Source: Marinobacterium sp.
GTDB taxonomy: Bacteria; Pseudomonadota; Gammaproteobacteria; Pseudomonadales; Balneatricaceae
Direction of reading: 5' to 3'
Length of the DNA: 44,519 nt
Assembly (NCBI GenBank): GCA_003250495.1
Contig: QKGH01000207.1
Coordinates: 1-44,519, forward strand
Made by a program: the position numbers and the translations under genes. Positions 668 through 36,205 of the stretch are shown one piece after another. The first letter of the stretch is position 1. Each line of letters opens with the position of its first letter. The notes below the pieces were generated by a model that saw only the letters and a list, made by a program, of their open reading frames with translations, did not search any database and was not told the DNA's origin.

Positions 668-1477
668 TCAGTTCAGGAGCAGCGGCAGCAGGTGCTTTTT
701 CATCAGCATCAACGACGCGATGCTGGCGAGAATGGCGAAGAACAGCTGCAGGTAGCGGCCGGGCAGGTGTGGGGCGATTTGACGTCCCACCAGCATGCCG
801 ATACAGGTGGAGCCGATGAACCACCAGGCCTCTTCGTTGATGCGGGCGCCGCCGAGCAGTGCGCTGGTCACGGTGCCGATGGAGATCAGCGTGATCACCG
901 TCAGCGAGGTGGCGACGATACCGTGCATATTCAGGTTACTGAACTGACGGATACCGGGCACGATCAGGAAACCGCCGCCGACGCCGAGCATGCCGCTGCA
1001 CAGGCCGGACAGGCCTCCAATCGACGACAGGGTCATGAAACAGCGCGGATTCCATTGGAAGCGACCGGTATCCGGGCGCAGCATGCAGTTCTTTCCCATC
1101 AGGTCCGGTGCGTCCAGCGCCTCTCGTTTCAACGCCTGGCGGGCCATGCGCAGCGCGATCATGAACAGCAGCAGGCTGAAGATCAGGGTCAGGACGGTGG
1201 TGGGCAGATTATGCGACAGCCAGATACCGAGCGGGGCGAAGAGGGTGCCGCAGAGTGCCATGACAATGGCGGCACGGTAACGGACCAGGCCGCGACGCAG
1301 CCCGTCCAGGCTGCCGATGAACGATGCGATGCCGACCGAGATCAGCGAGATCGGCATCGCCTGCGGCAGGGTAAAACCGAGCCCGAGCATCAGCGCCGGT
1401 ACGGCCAGTACGCCGCCGCCGCCGGTCAGCCCCAGCGCGATACCAACGCCGCCGCCCAATAGGATTGCATTCAGCAT
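668..1477 (-). CDS. TauE/SafE-family sulfite exporter/permease
   Basis: 269 aa multi-TM protein with repeated glycine-rich motifs (GLTGGGGVLAVP, GMLGVGGGFLIVP) typical of TauE/SafE. Confidence 0.88.
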   Translation of the reverse strand: MLNAILLGGGVGIALGLTGGGGVLAVPALMLGLGFTLPQAMPISLISVGIASFIGSLDGLRRGLVRYRAAIVMALCGTLFAPLGIWLSHNLPTTVLTLIFSLLLFMIALRMARQALKREALDAPDLMGKNCMLRPDTGRFQWNPRCFMTLSSIGGLSGLCSGMLGVGGGFLIVPGIRQFSNLNMHGIVATSLTVITLISIGTVTSALLGGARINEEAWWFIGSTCIGMLVGRQIAPHLPGRYLQLFFAILASIASLMLMKKHLLPLLLN

Positions 1478-1550: not shown

Positions 1551-1570
1551 GTATTATTCTTTTTTAATAT
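1551..1570. promoter_or_regulatory. Candidate ArsR/BigR-type operator upstream of TauE/SafE gene
   Basis: GTATTATTCTTTTTTAATAT; TATTA-N8-TAATA, same spacing as sites at 29613 and 36186; adjacent palindrome TATTAGCTAATA at 1568-1579. Confidence 0.4.
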
Positions 1571-29122: not shown

Positions 29123-29494
29123 TCAGGAGGGACCCGGACCACAATACATCTCGTGCAGCGTGCGGATGATCCGCTTCGCCGTATCGCCCTCCAGCGAGTA
29201 GTAGATGGTCTGCGATACGCGGCGGGTCCTGACCAGGCCATCTTTGCGCAGTACGGCGAGGTGTTGGGATAGCGCACTCTGGCTGAGTTCCAGGCAGCGG
29301 TTCAGCTCGCTGACCGATAACTCCTTGCCATCCAGGTGGCACAGAATCAGCAGGCGACTGTCATTGGCCAGTGCCTTCATCAGTTTGGCGGCGCTGGATA
29401 CATTGCTTTTCATCATCTCTAGCGTACGCTCGCTCATGCAGCTCGAGCTTCTGGGCGCTAGTTCTTCGGTTCCGATCGTTGTGGATTCGCTCAC
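29123..29494 (-). CDS. ArsR-family regulator, BigR/SqrR/YgaV-like with two conserved cysteines (likely GTG start at 29494)
   Basis: wHTH ALANDSRLLILCHLDGKELSVSELNRCLELSQSALSQHLAVLRKDGLVRTRRVSQTIYYSL...EMYCGPGPS; GGAG 6 nt before GTG. Confidence 0.85.
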   Translation of the reverse strand: MSESTTIGTEELAPRSSSCMSERTLEMMKSNVSSAAKLMKALANDSRLLILCHLDGKELSVSELNRCLELSQSALSQHLAVLRKDGLVRTRRVSQTIYYSLEGDTAKRIIRTLHEMYCGPGPS

Positions 29495-29604
29495 GTACTT
29501 CTCCGGCAGGTGTGTCAAAACGTTTTTTCGACCACCCTTGCTGTCATAACAACGAAATTTTATCCCATACTTAAGCAACTGCTCAAATAACGGAAAAGCA
29601 GGGC

Positions 29605-29632
29605 TTGTTGAAATATTAGTATAACCTAATAT
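29605..29632 (+). promoter_or_regulatory. Promoter/operator of MMPL operon (divergent with arsR)
   Basis: TTGTTG-N16-TAATAT overlapping inverted repeat ATATTAG-TATAAC-CTAATAT (29613-29632). Confidence 0.6.
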
Positions 29633-29670
29633 ACTGCGTACAACTCTGAAGCAGACTGAGGATTCAGTGC

Positions 29671-32244
29671 ATGATGCTGCGCGATTCGCTGGTGCAGATG
29701 TCGATTCACCGGCCCCGTTGGGTCTTTCTACTCGTTACCCTGATGTGTGTACTGGCCGCCTGGCAGATACCTTCCATCAAGGTTGATACCGATCCGGAGA
29801 ACATGCTGCCGCATGATCAGCCGGACCGGGTATTTCACGATCAGGTCAAGGAGCGCTTCGCGCTGCACGACATGATCGTGGTCGGCATCGTCAATACCGA
29901 CGATCCGAACGGCATCTACAATCCGCGCTCGCTGGATGCGCTGCACCAGCTGTCCACCGCCATCAGCCATTTCGATGGCGTGATCCTGCAGGACCAGATG
30001 GCGCTGGACCGGGTCGACAACATCACCCAGGAGGGGCCGGGCTCGATCCGCTTCGAATGGTTGATGAACGCGGCGCCGACCACCCAGGCGCAGTCCAGCG
30101 CGATACGCGATGCGGTCGCGCGCCTGCCGCTGCTGCAGAACACCCTGGTCTCCGGTGACGGCAAGGCGGCCGGGATCTATGTGCCGATCCAGGCCAAGTC
30201 GATCAGCTACCAGCTGTCGCAGCAGATCGAACAGGTGATCGCCGGCCTTAATGTGCCCGACCAGTTTCATATCGCCGGCCTGCCGGTATCGGAGGACACC
30301 TTCGGTGTCGAGATGTTCGTGCAGATGGCGATCTCGGCACCGCTGGCCGGTCTGATGATCTTCATCCTGATGTGGGTGTTCTTCCGCAGCCTGCTGCTGA
30401 TCACGGCGCCGATGCTGGTGGCGATGGCGTCGGTGATCGTGACCATGGGGCTGCTGATCGGGCAGGGCTACACCGTCCATATCATGAGCTCGATGATCCC
30501 GATCTTCCTGATGCCGATCGCGGTGGTGGACTCGGTGCATATCCTGTCGGAGTTCGCCGACCGCTATAAACCCGGCGAAAACGCCAAGCCGGTGGTCGCC
30601 GACGTCATGCACCACCTGTTCACGCCGATGTTCTTTACCTCGCTGACCTCCGCCGTGGGCTTCGCCTCGCTGGCGTTCACGCCGATTCCGCCGGTGCAGA
30701 TCTTCGGCCTGCACGTGGCGTTCGGCATCATGCTGGCGTTCCTGCTCACCGTCACACTGGTGCCGGCCTACATCGTCAGCCTGTCGCAGAAACGGATGGC
30801 GCAGCTGAAGGACCACAACATCGCCGAGGATGACAATTCACGCCTGGGACGCCTGCTGGCGGCGACCGGACGCCTGTCGGTGCGCTGGTCGCGTCCGCTG
30901 GTGTTGCTGTTCACCGCGCTGGTGGTGATCAGTGTCTGGGGCGTCACCAAGATCCAGATCAACGACAACCCGGTACGCTGGTTCAAGTCCGATCACCGTA
31001 TCCGTATCGCCGACCAGGTGTTGAACAGCCATTTTGCCGGCACCTACGACGCCTACCTGGTGTTCGATCGCACGCCGGGCCAGGACCTGACGGCACAGTT
31101 GACCAGCGGTTTGCTTAAGAGCGCCCAAGAGCAGGGCATGAGTGCCGAGGCACAGACTGCACTGCAGCAGATGATCGATGCCGCCGCGGCCGACAGCTTC
31201 GACCAGTTCGCCAGCCGTCTCTCCGGCGCGCTCGACGAAGCCAGCTTCAGTCGCCCGGCGGAAGAGGAGGCGCAGTGGCTCGATCTGATCGCCCAGGTGG
31301 AGCAGGCGCAGGTCAGCGCCAAGTACTTCCTCGACCCGCAGGCGCTGGCCTATGTCGATCAGATGGCGCAGGCGCTGGAGCAGAGCGATTACGTGGGCAA
31401 GGTCAACAGCCTGCCGGTACTGGTGAAGACCGTCTACCGCGAGCTGAACGGCGGTAACGAAACCGACTACCGGCTGCCCGATTCGGCCCGCGCCGTGGCG
31501 CAGACGATCCTCAGCTACCAGTCTTCGCACCGGCCGGACGATCTCTGGCATTTCGTGACCCCGGACTACCGTTCGACGCTGCTGTGGCTGCAGCTGAAGA
31601 GCGGCGACAACCAGGATATGACCAAGGTGATGGCGCAGGTGGACGCGTATATCGCCGCCCATCCGCTGCCGCAGGGGCTGACCACGCACTGGGCCGGACT
31701 GACCTACATCAACGTGGTGTGGCAGGAGCGCATGGTCAACGGTATGTTGAACAGCCTGCTCGGTGCCTTCGTCATGGTGTTGGTGATGATGGTACTGCTG
31801 TTCCGCTCGCTGAAGCTGGGGCTGCTGGCGATGTTGCCGCTGTCGGTAACGATCCTGGCGATCTATGGTCTGATCGGCTTTATCGGCAAGGATTACGATA
31901 TGCCGATCGCGGTGCTGTCGGCGCTGACGCTGGGGCTGTCGGTGGACTTCGCGATCCACTTCCTGGAGCGCGCCCGGGCGATCTACCGCGCCACCGGCAA
32001 CTGGCCGGAAACCGTGGCGGAGATGTACCGCGGCCCGTCGCGTGCGATCAGTCGTAACGCGATCGTCATCGCCATCGGTTTCACACCGCTGTTGGTGGCG
32101 CCGCTGGTGCCCTATATTACCGTCGGCTTCTTCCTCGCTTCGATCATGGCGGTCTCGGCGGTGGTGACCATCGTGCTGCTGCCGGCGGTGATGACGATGA
32201 TAAGCAATAAAGAAAGTCTGTTTGGGATCAAAAAGGGAGTCTGA
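29671..32244 (+). CDS. RND/MMPL-family transporter
   Basis: 857 aa; two SSD-like TM blocks (MSSMIPIFLMPIAVVDSVHILSEFADR; LGLSVDFAIHFLERAR). Confidence 0.92.
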   Translation: MMLRDSLVQMSIHRPRWVFLLVTLMCVLAAWQIPSIKVDTDPENMLPHDQPDRVFHDQVKERFALHDMIVVGIVNTDDPNGIYNPRSLDALHQLSTAISHFDGVILQDQMALDRVDNITQEGPGSIRFEWLMNAAPTTQAQSSAIRDAVARLPLLQNTLVSGDGKAAGIYVPIQAKSISYQLSQQIEQVIAGLNVPDQFHIAGLPVSEDTFGVEMFVQMAISAPLAGLMIFILMWVFFRSLLLITAPMLVAMASVIVTMGLLIGQGYTVHIMSSMIPIFLMPIAVVDSVHILSEFADRYKPGENAKPVVADVMHHLFTPMFFTSLTSAVGFASLAFTPIPPVQIFGLHVAFGIMLAFLLTVTLVPAYIVSLSQKRMAQLKDHNIAEDDNSRLGRLLAATGRLSVRWSRPLVLLFTALVVISVWGVTKIQINDNPVRWFKSDHRIRIADQVLNSHFAGTYDAYLVFDRTPGQDLTAQLTSGLLKSAQEQGMSAEAQTALQQMIDAAAADSFDQFASRLSGALDEASFSRPAEEEAQWLDLIAQVEQAQVSAKYFLDPQALAYVDQMAQALEQSDYVGKVNSLPVLVKTVYRELNGGNETDYRLPDSARAVAQTILSYQSSHRPDDLWHFVTPDYRSTLLWLQLKSGDNQDMTKVMAQVDAYIAAHPLPQGLTTHWAGLTYINVVWQERMVNGMLNSLLGAFVMVLVMMVLLFRSLKLGLLAMLPLSVTILAIYGLIGFIGKDYDMPIAVLSALTLGLSVDFAIHFLERARAIYRATGNWPETVAEMYRGPSRAISRNAIVIAIGFTPLLVAPLVPYITVGFFLASIMAVSAVVTIVLLPAVMTMISNKESLFGIKKGV

Positions 32245-32246
32245 AG

Positions 32247-33068
32247 ATGAAGACCCTTCTGCAACGTGTGAATGTGCTGATGCTCGGTGCCCTGATGGCT
32301 ACGCCACTGATGTCGGCGCCGCTGCAGGCGGCCGACCTGACCGATGTGCAGCAGATCGTCGACCAAGCCAACCTGGCCTCCTACTACCAGGGCAAGGATG
32401 GTCGTAGCGAGGTGCGCATGCTGATCACCGATGGTCAGGGGCGCGAGCAACTGCGCCAGTTCACCATCCTGCGCTATGACGTGGCCGATGCCGGCGACCA
32501 GTACTTCTACGTCGCGTTCAGCCGCCCGGCGGACGTGCGCGACACCGTATTCATGGTCGCCAAGCACGTGGACCGCGACGACGATCGCTGGCTCTACCTG
32601 CCGGGTCTGGACCTGGTCAAGCGCATCTCCGCCGGTGACAAGCGCACCAGTTTCGTCGGCTCGCACTTCTTCTACGAGGATGTGTCCGGGCGTAACCCGG
32701 CGGAGGACAACTTCGAGCTGATCAGTACCGACGACAGCTTCTACCACCTGAAAGCGACGCCGAAAGATCCGGCCAGCGTCGAGTTCGCCAGCTATACCCT
32801 GGCGGTCGACAAGCACACGATGCTGCCGATGAAGATCGAGTACACCGATGCGGGGGGCAAGCTCTATCGCCGCGTCGAGGCGCTGGAGGTGAAGGAGATC
32901 CAGGGCTACCCGACCGTGATCAGCAACAAGGTCTCCGACCTGCGCAGTGGCGGTCAGACCCTGATGCAGTTCGGCTTCATGAAGTATGACATCGGTCTGG
33001 ATGAATCGGTGTTCAGCGAACGCTCCCTGCGTAACCCGCCGCGCGACTGGCTGAGGAGACCGCAATGA
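32247..33068 (+). CDS. Outer membrane lipoprotein-sorting (LolA-like) protein
   Basis: 273 aa with signal peptide; VDQANLASYYQGKDGRSEVRMLITDGQGREQLRQFTILRYD...DRWLYLPGLDLVKRI. Confidence 0.87.
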   Translation: MKTLLQRVNVLMLGALMATPLMSAPLQAADLTDVQQIVDQANLASYYQGKDGRSEVRMLITDGQGREQLRQFTILRYDVADAGDQYFYVAFSRPADVRDTVFMVAKHVDRDDDRWLYLPGLDLVKRISAGDKRTSFVGSHFFYEDVSGRNPAEDNFELISTDDSFYHLKATPKDPASVEFASYTLAVDKHTMLPMKIEYTDAGGKLYRRVEALEVKEIQGYPTVISNKVSDLRSGGQTLMQFGFMKYDIGLDESVFSERSLRNPPRDWLRRPQ

Positions 33069-34369
33069 GATCGGCGCTGATCGCGGCGCTGCTGCTGGCG
33101 GCGCCAGCGGCCTTCGCCGCGGGCGATACGGCCACCGATAGCGCGGACTGGGGTGGCGACGCCTGGGGCGGTGACAGCTGGTCACAGGATCAGAGCGCGT
33201 CGCGCCTGCACGGCTTCTTCGAGGCCGGGATTGGCGCGCGGATACAGGACGATCCGCTGCTGGAGGACGACCTGACCCTGGGCGAAACCCGCGGGCGGCT
33301 GGAGTGGGCCGGCGAGCTGGGCAGTGCGCGTTACAGCCTGAAGGGCGACCTGTACGCCGATGCGGTGGAAAACGGCCTGCATGGCGATCTGCGCGAGGCG
33401 GTGCTCAGCTTCACCCCGCTGCAGCAGGTCGATATCCAGGCTGGCCAGCAGGTGCTGACCTGGGGTACCGGGGATATGCTGTTCCTGAACGACATGTTTC
33501 CGAAGGACTGGAAATCGTTCTTCGCCGGGCGCGACGAGTCCTACCTGAAAGCGCCGGCGGCCAGCATCAAGGGCAGCTATTTCGCCGATAGCTTCAGTGT
33601 CGACCTGGTGTGGACGCCGCTGTTCGAGTCGGACCGCTATATCGATGGCGAACGTTTCAGCTACTTCTCGCCGCTCAGCGGCGGCTACCAGGCCGCTCCC
33701 GACGGCAAGCTGAGCGCGGATGATCCCGACGATCTGCCGGAGGATGGCGAGCTGGCGGCGCGGATCTCGGGGCTGTCCGGTGCCACCGAGTGGGCGCTGT
33801 ACGGCTATCGCGGGTTCTGGAAGCAGCCGATGGGGATGGACAGCCTCGGCCATGCGATCTTCCCGCGCCTCGATGTCTATGGCGCCAGCCTGCGCGGTAC
33901 CCTCGGCGGCGGTATCGCCAACGCCGAGGTCGCCTGGTACGACGGCAAGGACAGCGGCGGCGACGACCCGCTGATCCCAAACGATCAGCTGCGCCTGCTG
34001 CTCGGCTACGACCACGAGATCGTGCCGCACCTGACCGGGGCCGGCCAGTATTACGTCGAGTGGACCCAGGATTACGATGCGCTACGCCGTACCAGCGCCG
34101 CGGACTACCGCGCGGACCAGTTCCGCCATGTGCTGACCTTCCGCCTGACCTGGAAGCTGATGCAGGATAATCTGACCCTGTCCTGGTTCAACTACTGGTC
34201 ACCCAGTGATCAGGATTACTACCTGCGCCCGCAGGCCAGCTATCGCTTCGACGATCACTGGACCCTGAGCGGCGGCGCCAACCTGTTTGGCGGCAAGCAG
34301 GAGCACACCTTCTTCGGCCAGTTCGAGAACGCCTCCAACGTCTGGGCGCGTCTGCGCTACGGCTTCTGA
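33065..34369 (+). CDS. Outer-membrane beta-barrel protein (DUF1302/alginate-export-like)
   Basis: 434 aa, signal peptide, alternating beta pattern, C-terminal aromatic RLRYGF; ATGA overlap with upstream gene. Confidence 0.78.
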   Translation: MRSALIAALLLAAPAAFAAGDTATDSADWGGDAWGGDSWSQDQSASRLHGFFEAGIGARIQDDPLLEDDLTLGETRGRLEWAGELGSARYSLKGDLYADAVENGLHGDLREAVLSFTPLQQVDIQAGQQVLTWGTGDMLFLNDMFPKDWKSFFAGRDESYLKAPAASIKGSYFADSFSVDLVWTPLFESDRYIDGERFSYFSPLSGGYQAAPDGKLSADDPDDLPEDGELAARISGLSGATEWALYGYRGFWKQPMGMDSLGHAIFPRLDVYGASLRGTLGGGIANAEVAWYDGKDSGGDDPLIPNDQLRLLLGYDHEIVPHLTGAGQYYVEWTQDYDALRRTSAADYRADQFRHVLTFRLTWKLMQDNLTLSWFNYWSPSDQDYYLRPQASYRFDDHWTLSGGANLFGGKQEHTFFGQFENASNVWARLRYGF

Positions 34370-34399
34370 GTCCGGTGCCCCACTTGATGGCGCCCCGGC

Positions 34400-35659
34400 T
34401 CAGGCCGGCCGGGTGCGCCGCCGGGTCGGGCTGCTGGCCAGCACCACGCGATTGCGGCCCGTCCCCTTGGCGCGATAGAGCGCCTCATCGGCACGTTTGA
34501 TCACCGTCTCGGGGCGCTCGTCGGCCTGGCGCTCGGCAACTCCGATACTGACCGTTACCCTGACGCTTTCCTGGCCGTTGTCGTCGGCGGAACCGCGAGC
34601 CTGGCGTCCCTCGCGGTGGCGTTTGGGCCGGTCCGGCGCGCGTACCCGCATCGGATACTGCTCGATCTGGTGGCGCAGCTGTTCCAGCGCCTGCTGCGCA
34701 TCGGCTTCGCTGCGGTGGTTGAACACCAGCGTGAACTCCTCGCCGCCGTAACGGTAGAGTACCCCGCCGGCCTGAACCCGGCGCAACTGGCTGGCTACCA
34801 TCCGCAGTACCTGATCGCCGACGTCGTGACCGTAGCTATCGTTGAACTGCTTGAAATGGTCGATATCGACCATGGCTATGCTGTAGTGGCGCCCCAGCGC
34901 CGCCAGATGATGCTCCAGTGCCCGGCGGGCCGGGATTCCGGTCAGCGTATCGATGAACGCCAGCCCATAGATATGCTGGATGATCGCCAGGATCAGCAAC
35001 AGGGCGGCACTGCCCTGCGCGAGCAGGCTGAACATCGGCAGGTGCAGGGTACCGATCGCCAGCATCTGCATGCCGACCACGCCCAGCAGCGCGACCTCAT
35101 CGGGGGTGCGCCGGACCAGGGTCAGTAACAGGGCCAGCAGTAGCGGCGGGAGGGTCAGCCATCCCGCGGCGCTGCTCAACTGCAACGAGGCGCTGGCGGT
35201 TTCCAGCAGCGCGGTGGGGAGATGGGGCAACCAGGCCGCGGTGAGCGCGGGTGCCTGCCATAGCAGCAGTATTGTCAGAAACGGTAACAGCAGCAGGCCG
35301 AGGCGCAGCACTCCCCGCAGCGTGAGCGGCGAGGTATCGCGTTGCACCAGAATCCAGCCCAGGAGCAGCGGAACGCCCAGCCCCAGCAGCGTATACAGCA
35401 CATAGCCCGAGGCTCGGTCGATACCGAGGCGATTCAATTGGTAGAGAGTGTAGGCGGTCAACCCGCTGAGTGCGGCGGCGAGGGCGATGCGACCGCGTTT
35501 GAAGGCGCAGGCGAGGAGCAGTGCCACGGCCGACAACACGGGCGGCAGGCGTTGCCCCAGAACTGAAACGGCCGGATCGACGGTGGCCAGCATTGGTGCC
35601 AGCAGCCAGGGCAGTAACAGCAGCGACAGGGGCAGGCAGAGGCGTAACAGTGGAAGCAA
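34400..35659 (-). CDS. Membrane-anchored diguanylate cyclase (GGDEF)
   Basis: 419 aa; N-terminal TMs; DIDHFKQFNDSYGHDVGDQVLR...YRYGGEEFTLVF. Confidence 0.92.
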   Translation of the reverse strand: MLPLLRLCLPLSLLLLPWLLAPMLATVDPAVSVLGQRLPPVLSAVALLLACAFKRGRIALAAALSGLTAYTLYQLNRLGIDRASGYVLYTLLGLGVPLLLGWILVQRDTSPLTLRGVLRLGLLLLPFLTILLLWQAPALTAAWLPHLPTALLETASASLQLSSAAGWLTLPPLLLALLLTLVRRTPDEVALLGVVGMQMLAIGTLHLPMFSLLAQGSAALLLILAIIQHIYGLAFIDTLTGIPARRALEHHLAALGRHYSIAMVDIDHFKQFNDSYGHDVGDQVLRMVASQLRRVQAGGVLYRYGGEEFTLVFNHRSEADAQQALEQLRHQIEQYPMRVRAPDRPKRHREGRQARGSADDNGQESVRVTVSIGVAERQADERPETVIKRADEALYRAKGTGRNRVVLASSPTRRRTRPA

Positions 35660-35704
35660 GGCTGTCTAGATCCCGAACCGACGTTGTCCGGATACTAGCA
35701 TGAA

Positions 35705-35732
35705 CGCCGCTGCCCGGCAGGGGGCAGCGGCG
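35705..35732. terminator. GC-rich hairpin between DUF2892 gene and GGDEF gene
   Basis: CGCCGCTGCCC-GGCAGG-GGGCAGCGGCG. Confidence 0.5.
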
Positions 35733-35754
35733 CATTAGGCGCGAGCAGGGTGGG

Positions 35755-36168
35755 TTAAGCGCGCGGCTCGGGTTTTTTGAAGCCGCACAGCCGCGACAGC
35801 GTCATCGCCGGGCACCAGCCGGTGAACGCGGATTGTACCAGGCTCACACCGATCACCGCGGTCAGCAGCAGGATCTGCGAACTCAGGCCGGCGATAAACA
35901 CCAGTCCCAATGTCAGCAGGACCAGGGTGCCGGCAAACAGGTGAACGCCCTGATGTACGCTCATACCCCGGGCACACACCTCCTCCTTCAGTCCGATCTT
36001 GCGGAAGATCACCATCGCCGGGCACCAGTTGGTGAAGGCGGACTGCAGCAGGTTGAGACCGACAAAGGCGGTCAGGTAGTAGCCCCAGGGATGGTACCAG
36101 GTGCCGATCGCCAGACTGATCAGGATGACGGAACCCGCGAGCAGGCGCAGGGCGGAATGGAAGGACAT
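35755..36168 (-). CDS. Tandem DUF2892 (YgaP-like transmembrane) protein
   Basis: 137 aa; two internal repeats ending LLQSAFTNWCPAMVIFRKIGLK and LVQSAFTGWCPAMTLSRLCGFKK. Confidence 0.87.
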   Translation of the reverse strand: MSFHSALRLLAGSVILISLAIGTWYHPWGYYLTAFVGLNLLQSAFTNWCPAMVIFRKIGLKEEVCARGMSVHQGVHLFAGTLVLLTLGLVFIAGLSSQILLLTAVIGVSLVQSAFTGWCPAMTLSRLCGFKKPEPRA

Positions 36169-36185
36169 GGATGGTGCTCCTATAT

Positions 36186-36205
36186 ATATTAACTTTGGCT
36201 AATAT
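36186..36205. promoter_or_regulatory. Candidate ArsR/BigR-type operator upstream of DUF2892 gene
   Basis: ATATTA-ACTTTGGC-TAATAT, same 6-8-6 layout as arsR/MMPL site. Confidence 0.55.

Follow-up and report, generated by a model that had tools for sequence, protein, structure and literature searches.

Which genes does the product of a small arsR gene control, and to what signal may it respond? We addressed this question for a gene on contig QKGH01000207.1 of a Marinobacterium metagenome-assembled genome (MAG; 3.51-Mb assembly, 490 contigs, 87.5% complete), from which a stretch of 44.5 kb, referred to as the window, was analysed. The original prediction had placed an AT-rich inverted repeat in the arsR/MMPL promoter region, upstream of a DUF2892 gene and upstream of a TauE/SafE gene, and had assigned all three loci to one BigR/SqrR-like regulator. 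Our comparison of promoters and gene neighbourhoods points to a reactive-sulfur regulon with the window as its hub, which we consider very probable. The most conserved target, apparently autoregulated together with arsR, is a trio of genes for an MMPL transporter, a LolA-like protein and an outer-membrane protein (OMP); the rank of the trio among the targets and its shared operons with sqr had been missed by the original prediction.

Operators and regulator in the window

The regulatory features of the window are as follows.

29123..29437, minus strand: arsR, predicted HlyU/SqrR-like dithiol repressor (Pfam HTH_5), probable start ATG 29437
29608..29635, plus strand: predicted sigma-70 promoter of MMPL (TTGAAA-16-TATACT, 10/12 match)
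29613..29632: operator 1, ATATTAGTATAACCTAATAT, exact ATATTAG-N6-CTAATAT in the arsR/MMPL promoter, in place in relatives and in the named loci described below
36186..36205: operator 2, ATATTAACTTTGGCTAATAT, lying 17 bp ahead of the DUF2892 start
1551..1570: weak candidate operator 3, GTATTATTCTTTTTTAATAT, 74 bp upstream of tauE

The three sites were found where they had been predicted and with the predicted sequences, two of them with an exact ATATTA-N8-TAATAT layout and the third off by one base. Allowing up to two mismatches, they are the sole matches to this pattern in the window, whereas dinucleotide shuffles of the window gave 0.07 matches on average and never three. The best sites of the whole assembly have a longer core in common, and ATATTAG-N6-CTAATAT was therefore used as refined motif. 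A weight matrix trained on other genomes only ranks the MMPL, DUF2892 and TauE sites first, second and third in the window (scores of 29.8, 25.6 and 14.0; 0, 0 and 0.005 hits expected per shuffled window); the next score of 9.15 comes from a register overlapping the TauE site, and the best unrelated stretch reaches 3.9.

Operator 1 fills the spacer of the predicted MMPL promoter and overlaps both its -35 hexamer TTGAAA and its -10 hexamer TATACT (TATAAT in many relatives), which is a classic repressor geometry. Operator 2 overlaps the predicted extended -10 element of DUF2892 (TGCTATATT, minus strand). Upstream of tauE no sigma-70 promoter was seen; the site there departs from the refined motif at three positions and reached P=0.003 when the local sequence was shuffled, and since tauE is without ortholog in the family, footprinting had no orthologous promoter for comparison. 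It is the weakest of the three sites, and a predicted operator at this position is only plausible.

The reading frame of arsR is open upstream to 29578, and most relatives have one close ortholog. The closest solved structure by sequence is HlyU (4e-27), followed by SqrR (1e-21), YgaV (1e-17) and BigR (1e-14), with NolR also among the top matches. Cys33 and Cys99 (RLLILC and LHEMYC; numbering from ATG 29437), 66 residues apart, align with both cysteines (alpha2 and alpha5) of HlyU and SqrR and are retained in nearly all co-located ArsR homologs. The same spacing is found in BigR of Acinetobacter baumannii, with its dithiol C34/C100 (PMC7315123). HlyU of Vibrio cholerae is a persulfide-sensing ArsR protein of sequence similarity network (SSN) cluster 4, which reacts with persulfides and not with peroxide (PMC10509353). 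We therefore predict a DNA-binding, persulfide-sensing repressor of the HlyU/SqrR type with the winged-helix ArsR fold. Of the label given originally, the cysteine pair typical of persulfide-sensing ArsR proteins is borne out, while the nearest characterised proteins are HlyU and SqrR instead of BigR; strict BigR identity is ruled out by the NCBIfam model NF040642 (82.7 bits against a cut-off of 155). Other ArsR proteins of the genome are only distant paralogs with 36-38% identity. A second ArsR gene (G000 contig C489, L037:1375-1801; 36% identical) is preceded at a distance of about 50 bp by a palindrome-like site of its own, ATATTCGATTTTCCGTATAT; its product may be a paralogous regulator whose operator has shifted.

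Conservation of the operators and extent of the proposed regulon

Eight relatives keep the gene order arsR, MMPL, LolA, OMP, GGDEF, DUF2892 and Usp with an operator at both ends, about 6.5 kb apart, although in one of them the site at DUF2892 deviates at two positions. An alignment of the MMPL intergenic region from 10 genomes revealed the operator as the only strongly conserved block (TTG..ATATTAG-N6-CTAATATAATG), and the DUF2892 promoters likewise share a conserved block (ATATTAG/CTAATATAGC); in both alignments the palindromic half-sites are conserved and their surroundings have diverged. The comparison of orthologous promoters thus bears out the MMPL and DUF2892 sites, and the common control of three loci claimed originally is supported for these two, with TauE as a plausible third member. 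In one relative (G018), DUF2892 and arsR even form one operon behind a single operator. Across 13 related genomes, 40 sites match ATATTAG-N6-CTAATAT with at most one mismatch versus four for the reversed motif. To look further afield, GTDB genomes were searched with the LolA-like protein, which yielded 80 named loci; 19 of the 38 promoters shared there with a divergent arsR carry a site at this threshold (reversed control: 0). The DUF2892 promoters of several genera (L115:8617-8659, L143, L144, L175, L178, L205) contain two overlapping tandem operators, ATATTATATATTAATAATATCTAATAT, suggesting cooperative binding.

In the whole assembly, nine matches to ATATTA-N8-TAATAT with at most one mismatch stand against one for the reversed control. 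The sites and the genes next to them, with contigs designated by C numbers, are listed here.

At most one mismatch: arsR/MMPL promoter
At most one mismatch: DUF2892 promoter
At most one mismatch, C172: upstream of an OsmC-family gene
At most one mismatch, C196: upstream of a TDT/TehA-type transporter, itself after a TauE/SafE gene
At most one mismatch, C450: tetrathionate-reductase-family octaheme cytochrome (TIGR04315, 632 bits) with cytochrome b561
At most one mismatch, C488: upstream of an SQR-like flavoprotein
At most one mismatch, C119: at the contig end
Weaker, C378: upstream of a periplasmic rhodanese
Weaker, C427: upstream of a 1-Cys peroxiredoxin, with persulfide dioxygenase (PDO) adjoining
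Weaker, C3: upstream of SulP
Weaker, C70:1545: type I SQR (match to 3sz0 at 5e-150), three mismatches, matrix score 20.9

The genome-wide search suggested originally thus returned recurring sulfur genes, namely those for SQR-type, rhodanese, OsmC, TDT and octaheme tetrathionate-reductase-type proteins. The links of the site to SulP, TDT, SQR, rhodanese and OsmC genes recur in relatives, where PDO promoters also bear it. For the PDO of the genome itself membership in the regulon is uncertain, because a terminator-like hairpin, recognised by reading the sequence, separates it from the peroxiredoxin gene. In the genus of the window (L093, L097, L102; G002, G006, G005) the operator lies between divergent genes for PDO and an aconitase-like protein, hinting that sulfur control may extend to an Fe-S enzyme. 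For the HlyU/SqrR group in Oceanospirillaceae, the regulon provides a predicted operator together with predicted targets.

The MMPL-LolA-OMP trio and related systems

Pfam confirmed the gene calls of the original prediction for ArsR, MMPL, LolA_like, YgaP-like_TM (=DUF2892) and TauE, and the genes predicted to be controlled in the window are the following.

29671..32244, plus strand: MMPL/RND inner-membrane transporter, 857 aa (Pfam MMPL 4e-38)
32247..33068, plus strand: LolA-like periplasmic protein, 273 aa (Pfam LolA_like 2e-52, DUF1329 8e-8)
33065..34369, plus strand: outer-membrane beta-barrel of a DUF1302-type family, 434 aa
35755..36168, minus strand: DUF2892/YgaP-like_TM protein (Pfam YgaP-like_TM 1e-19, two copies of the transmembrane (TM) domain)
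668..1477, minus strand: TauE/SafE permease (Pfam TauE 6e-41)

The best subfamily match of the transporter is HAE3 (TIGR00921, 163 bits, under the NCBIfam cut-off of 351.9), and its AlphaFold2 model (predicted local distance difference test, pLDDT, 87.5) resembles the lipid-type RND pumps MmpL4/5, NPC1, HpnN and MmpL3. D287 and D759 are invariant in 36 homologs and, from their position in the transmembrane core, are likely to form the proton relay. Solved relatives of the LolA-like protein are 4z48, 9tp6 and 3bk5. The barrel had zero sequence matches among solved structures, and its model (pLDDT 88.6) is an all-beta barrel with Foldseek matches to porins and AlgE; DUF1302 is recognised in 24 of 57 homologs, the copy in the window being without a match. 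The operon stops after the OMP gene, none of its proteins matches a membrane-fusion protein (MFP) family, and no AmeC-like fourth gene lies between MMPL, LolA and OMP.

The trio is complete in 77 of the 80 named loci, which also contain HlyU-like arsR (50), DUF2892 (50), type I SQR (21) and PDO (8) as neighbours; only five loci lack every such neighbour as well as a site. In 16 promoter-bearing loci, mainly from Woeseiaceae and other uncultured gammaproteobacteria, sqr lies directly before MMPL, in most cases with a 4-bp overlap of the SQR stop and MMPL start (ATGA-type coupling), and in L160 PDO is immediately upstream. In the MMPL tree the Oceanospirillaceae, Alteromonadales-type and Woeseiaceae-type sets are separate clades, which have the same partners in different gene orders. 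The MMPL of L172 (labelled Simkaniaceae) is nearly identical to that of Woeseiaceae L173, and L153 (labelled Deltaproteobacteria) nests in the gammaproteobacteria; according to this placement, both MAG contigs are probably misbinned.

Among characterised systems, SqrR of Rhodobacter, BigR of Xylella and Acinetobacter and YgaV of Escherichia coli likewise belong to the ArsR repressors with a dithiol and are associated with SQR, PDO, rhodanese, TauE or DUF2892 genes, but they are less similar to the ArsR of the window than HlyU is, and the trio sets the window regulon apart from theirs. The SqrR operator is reported as ATTC-N8-GAAT (PMC9774250), unlike the motif found here. The published HlyU operator holds AATTTAG-N6-TTAATTT, with the 7-6-7 layout of our motif and four mismatches to it, a likeness that is only consistent with a relationship because 6.6% of shuffled operators match to an equal degree. 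HlyU acts on a haemolysin promoter, in contrast to the sulfide-oxidation and export-type genes predicted here. Different from YgaVP, the DUF2892 protein of the window has no rhodanese domain, being composed of the TM domain alone, twice, and its gene is 6.5 kb away from arsR; the adjacency does occur in G018. Taken together, these comparisons place the window regulon as a variant among the HlyU/SqrR/BigR systems.

The AmeABCD system of Castellaniella defragrans, which exports apolar monoterpenes (PMC6394551), likewise has a periplasmic protein of the LolA superfamily and a DUF1302 outer-membrane protein, together with an RND pump of the HAE3 type, to which the window transporter is similar below the cut-off; it differs in its gene order, in having AmeC, in a DUF1329-type AmeB and in its linkage to monoterpene genes in place of sulfur genes. 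In Azospira suillum an operon of SQR and RND genes (Dsui_3440-3443) is strongly induced in sulfide oxidation and a DUF2892 gene about 10-fold, and sulfide was oxidised no more slowly after its SQR and RND genes had been deleted (PMC5358917). These data would fit a role in export or tolerance but do not prove it. That operon includes an MFP subunit, and a LolA-like or DUF1302 component is not named. The literature covered, to which most subscription journals do not belong, contained no report tying MMPL to SQR or persulfide.

A possible sulfur exporter and competing explanations

The operator, its conservation, its targets, the promoter overlap, the conserved cysteines and the trio-SQR operons were computed here, and a mechanism can be proposed on this basis. 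With both cysteines reduced, ArsR would bind ATATTAG-N6-CTAATAT and, lying over the spacer, -35 and -10 elements of the MMPL promoter and over the extended -10 element of DUF2892, would shut out RNA polymerase. Once sulfide gives rise to persulfides, these would link the cysteine pair and release the repressor, which would turn on SQR for sulfide oxidation, PDO, rhodanese, OsmC and peroxiredoxin for persulfide disposal, TDT and perhaps TauE and SulP for sulfur-anion transport, as well as DUF2892 and the trio. At the inner membrane, SQR may leave polysulfane or S8, both hydrophobic, and the RND pump would lift this material, the LolA-like protein ferry it and the barrel release it, so that hydrophobic sulfur, either zero-valent sulfur or a polysulfide-modified lipid, would be carried from the inner to the outer membrane. 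An exporter dedicated to moving zero-valent sulfur across the envelope, under a persulfide-sensing repressor, is our leading functional reading of the trio, which we put forward tentatively. The route by which zero-valent sulfur exits the cell is stated as an open question for Chlorobaculum tepidum (PMC12285230), and a pump, a carrier and a barrel that share operators, and elsewhere an overlapping operon, with sqr are a concrete candidate. If true, this would explain in genetic terms how sulfide oxidisers deposit sulfur outside their cells.

Several observations weigh against this picture. Among 146 genomes of the order, nine have the trio and ten type I SQR, but only two have both; this co-occurrence, tested at the genome level, is weak and indicates that the trio does not depend on that enzyme. 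G003, G004, G010 and G012 retain arsR despite the loss of trio and DUF2892, which points to other or weaker arsR targets there; in these genomes (L120, L121, L122, L124) arsR adjoins AzlD, GGDEF or Usp genes. In the Idiomarina and Bowmanella loci arsR is downstream and the motif mostly absent. At up to three mismatches the genome of the window has 31 sites versus 21 in the reversed control, and some sites with two or three mismatches are therefore likely due to chance, which may apply to two-mismatch sites near clpB and an iron ABC transporter.

LolA-like carriers bind acyl chains. This and the structural neighbourhood of the transporter, composed of lipid and sterol transporters (MmpL3/4/5, NPC1, HpnN), would suit a trio that maintains the envelope by hopanoid, sterol-like or phospholipid traffic and is induced by membrane damage from sulfide, without any sulfur cargo; sqr is also absent from many loci of the wider family. 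The ATGA-type coupling to type I sqr, the PDO gene of L160 and the presence of DUF2892 at 50 of the 80 loci argue for sulfur rather than general stress, and we regard the lipid function as a serious possibility that still falls short of being probable. It seems rather unlikely that the trio is a general efflux system for hydrophobic compounds, organic polysulfides and other apolar toxins among them, which was recruited into the regulon: the types of its parts resemble those of AmeABCD, but the AmeC-like component is not seen and the linkage is to sulfide oxidation and not to terpene or hydrocarbon genes.

Alternatives to the sulfur regulon itself concern the sites. They could serve a regulator other than the adjacent ArsR, such as the second one on C489, as G003, G004 and G012 have arsR and zero sites at one mismatch, and Nitrincola loci have a perfect operator and no adjoining arsR. 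We judge this improbable, since sites track arsR and lie in its own promoter in many lineages and arrangements (arsR/MMPL, arsR/SQR, DUF2892-arsR, arsR-TauE) and the genome holds nothing but the distant paralogs. That the motif is mere AT-rich promoter sequence could be argued from its overlap with -10 and -35 elements, and we give this next to no credence. The original prediction had asked how frequent the motif is in random DNA, and shuffles, reversed controls and the independent matrix agree on an enrichment beyond chance; together with the footprints, with their conserved half-sites, and the zero one-mismatch sites in the three genomes lacking trio and DUF2892, they rule out a chance or AT-rich artefact. 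In two further loci (L222:5086-10348 and L225:3143-8398) the trio and DUF2892 have an ArsR of another type as neighbour (33-34% identical), and the motif is absent, which makes a swap of the regulator with conserved cargo genes possible.

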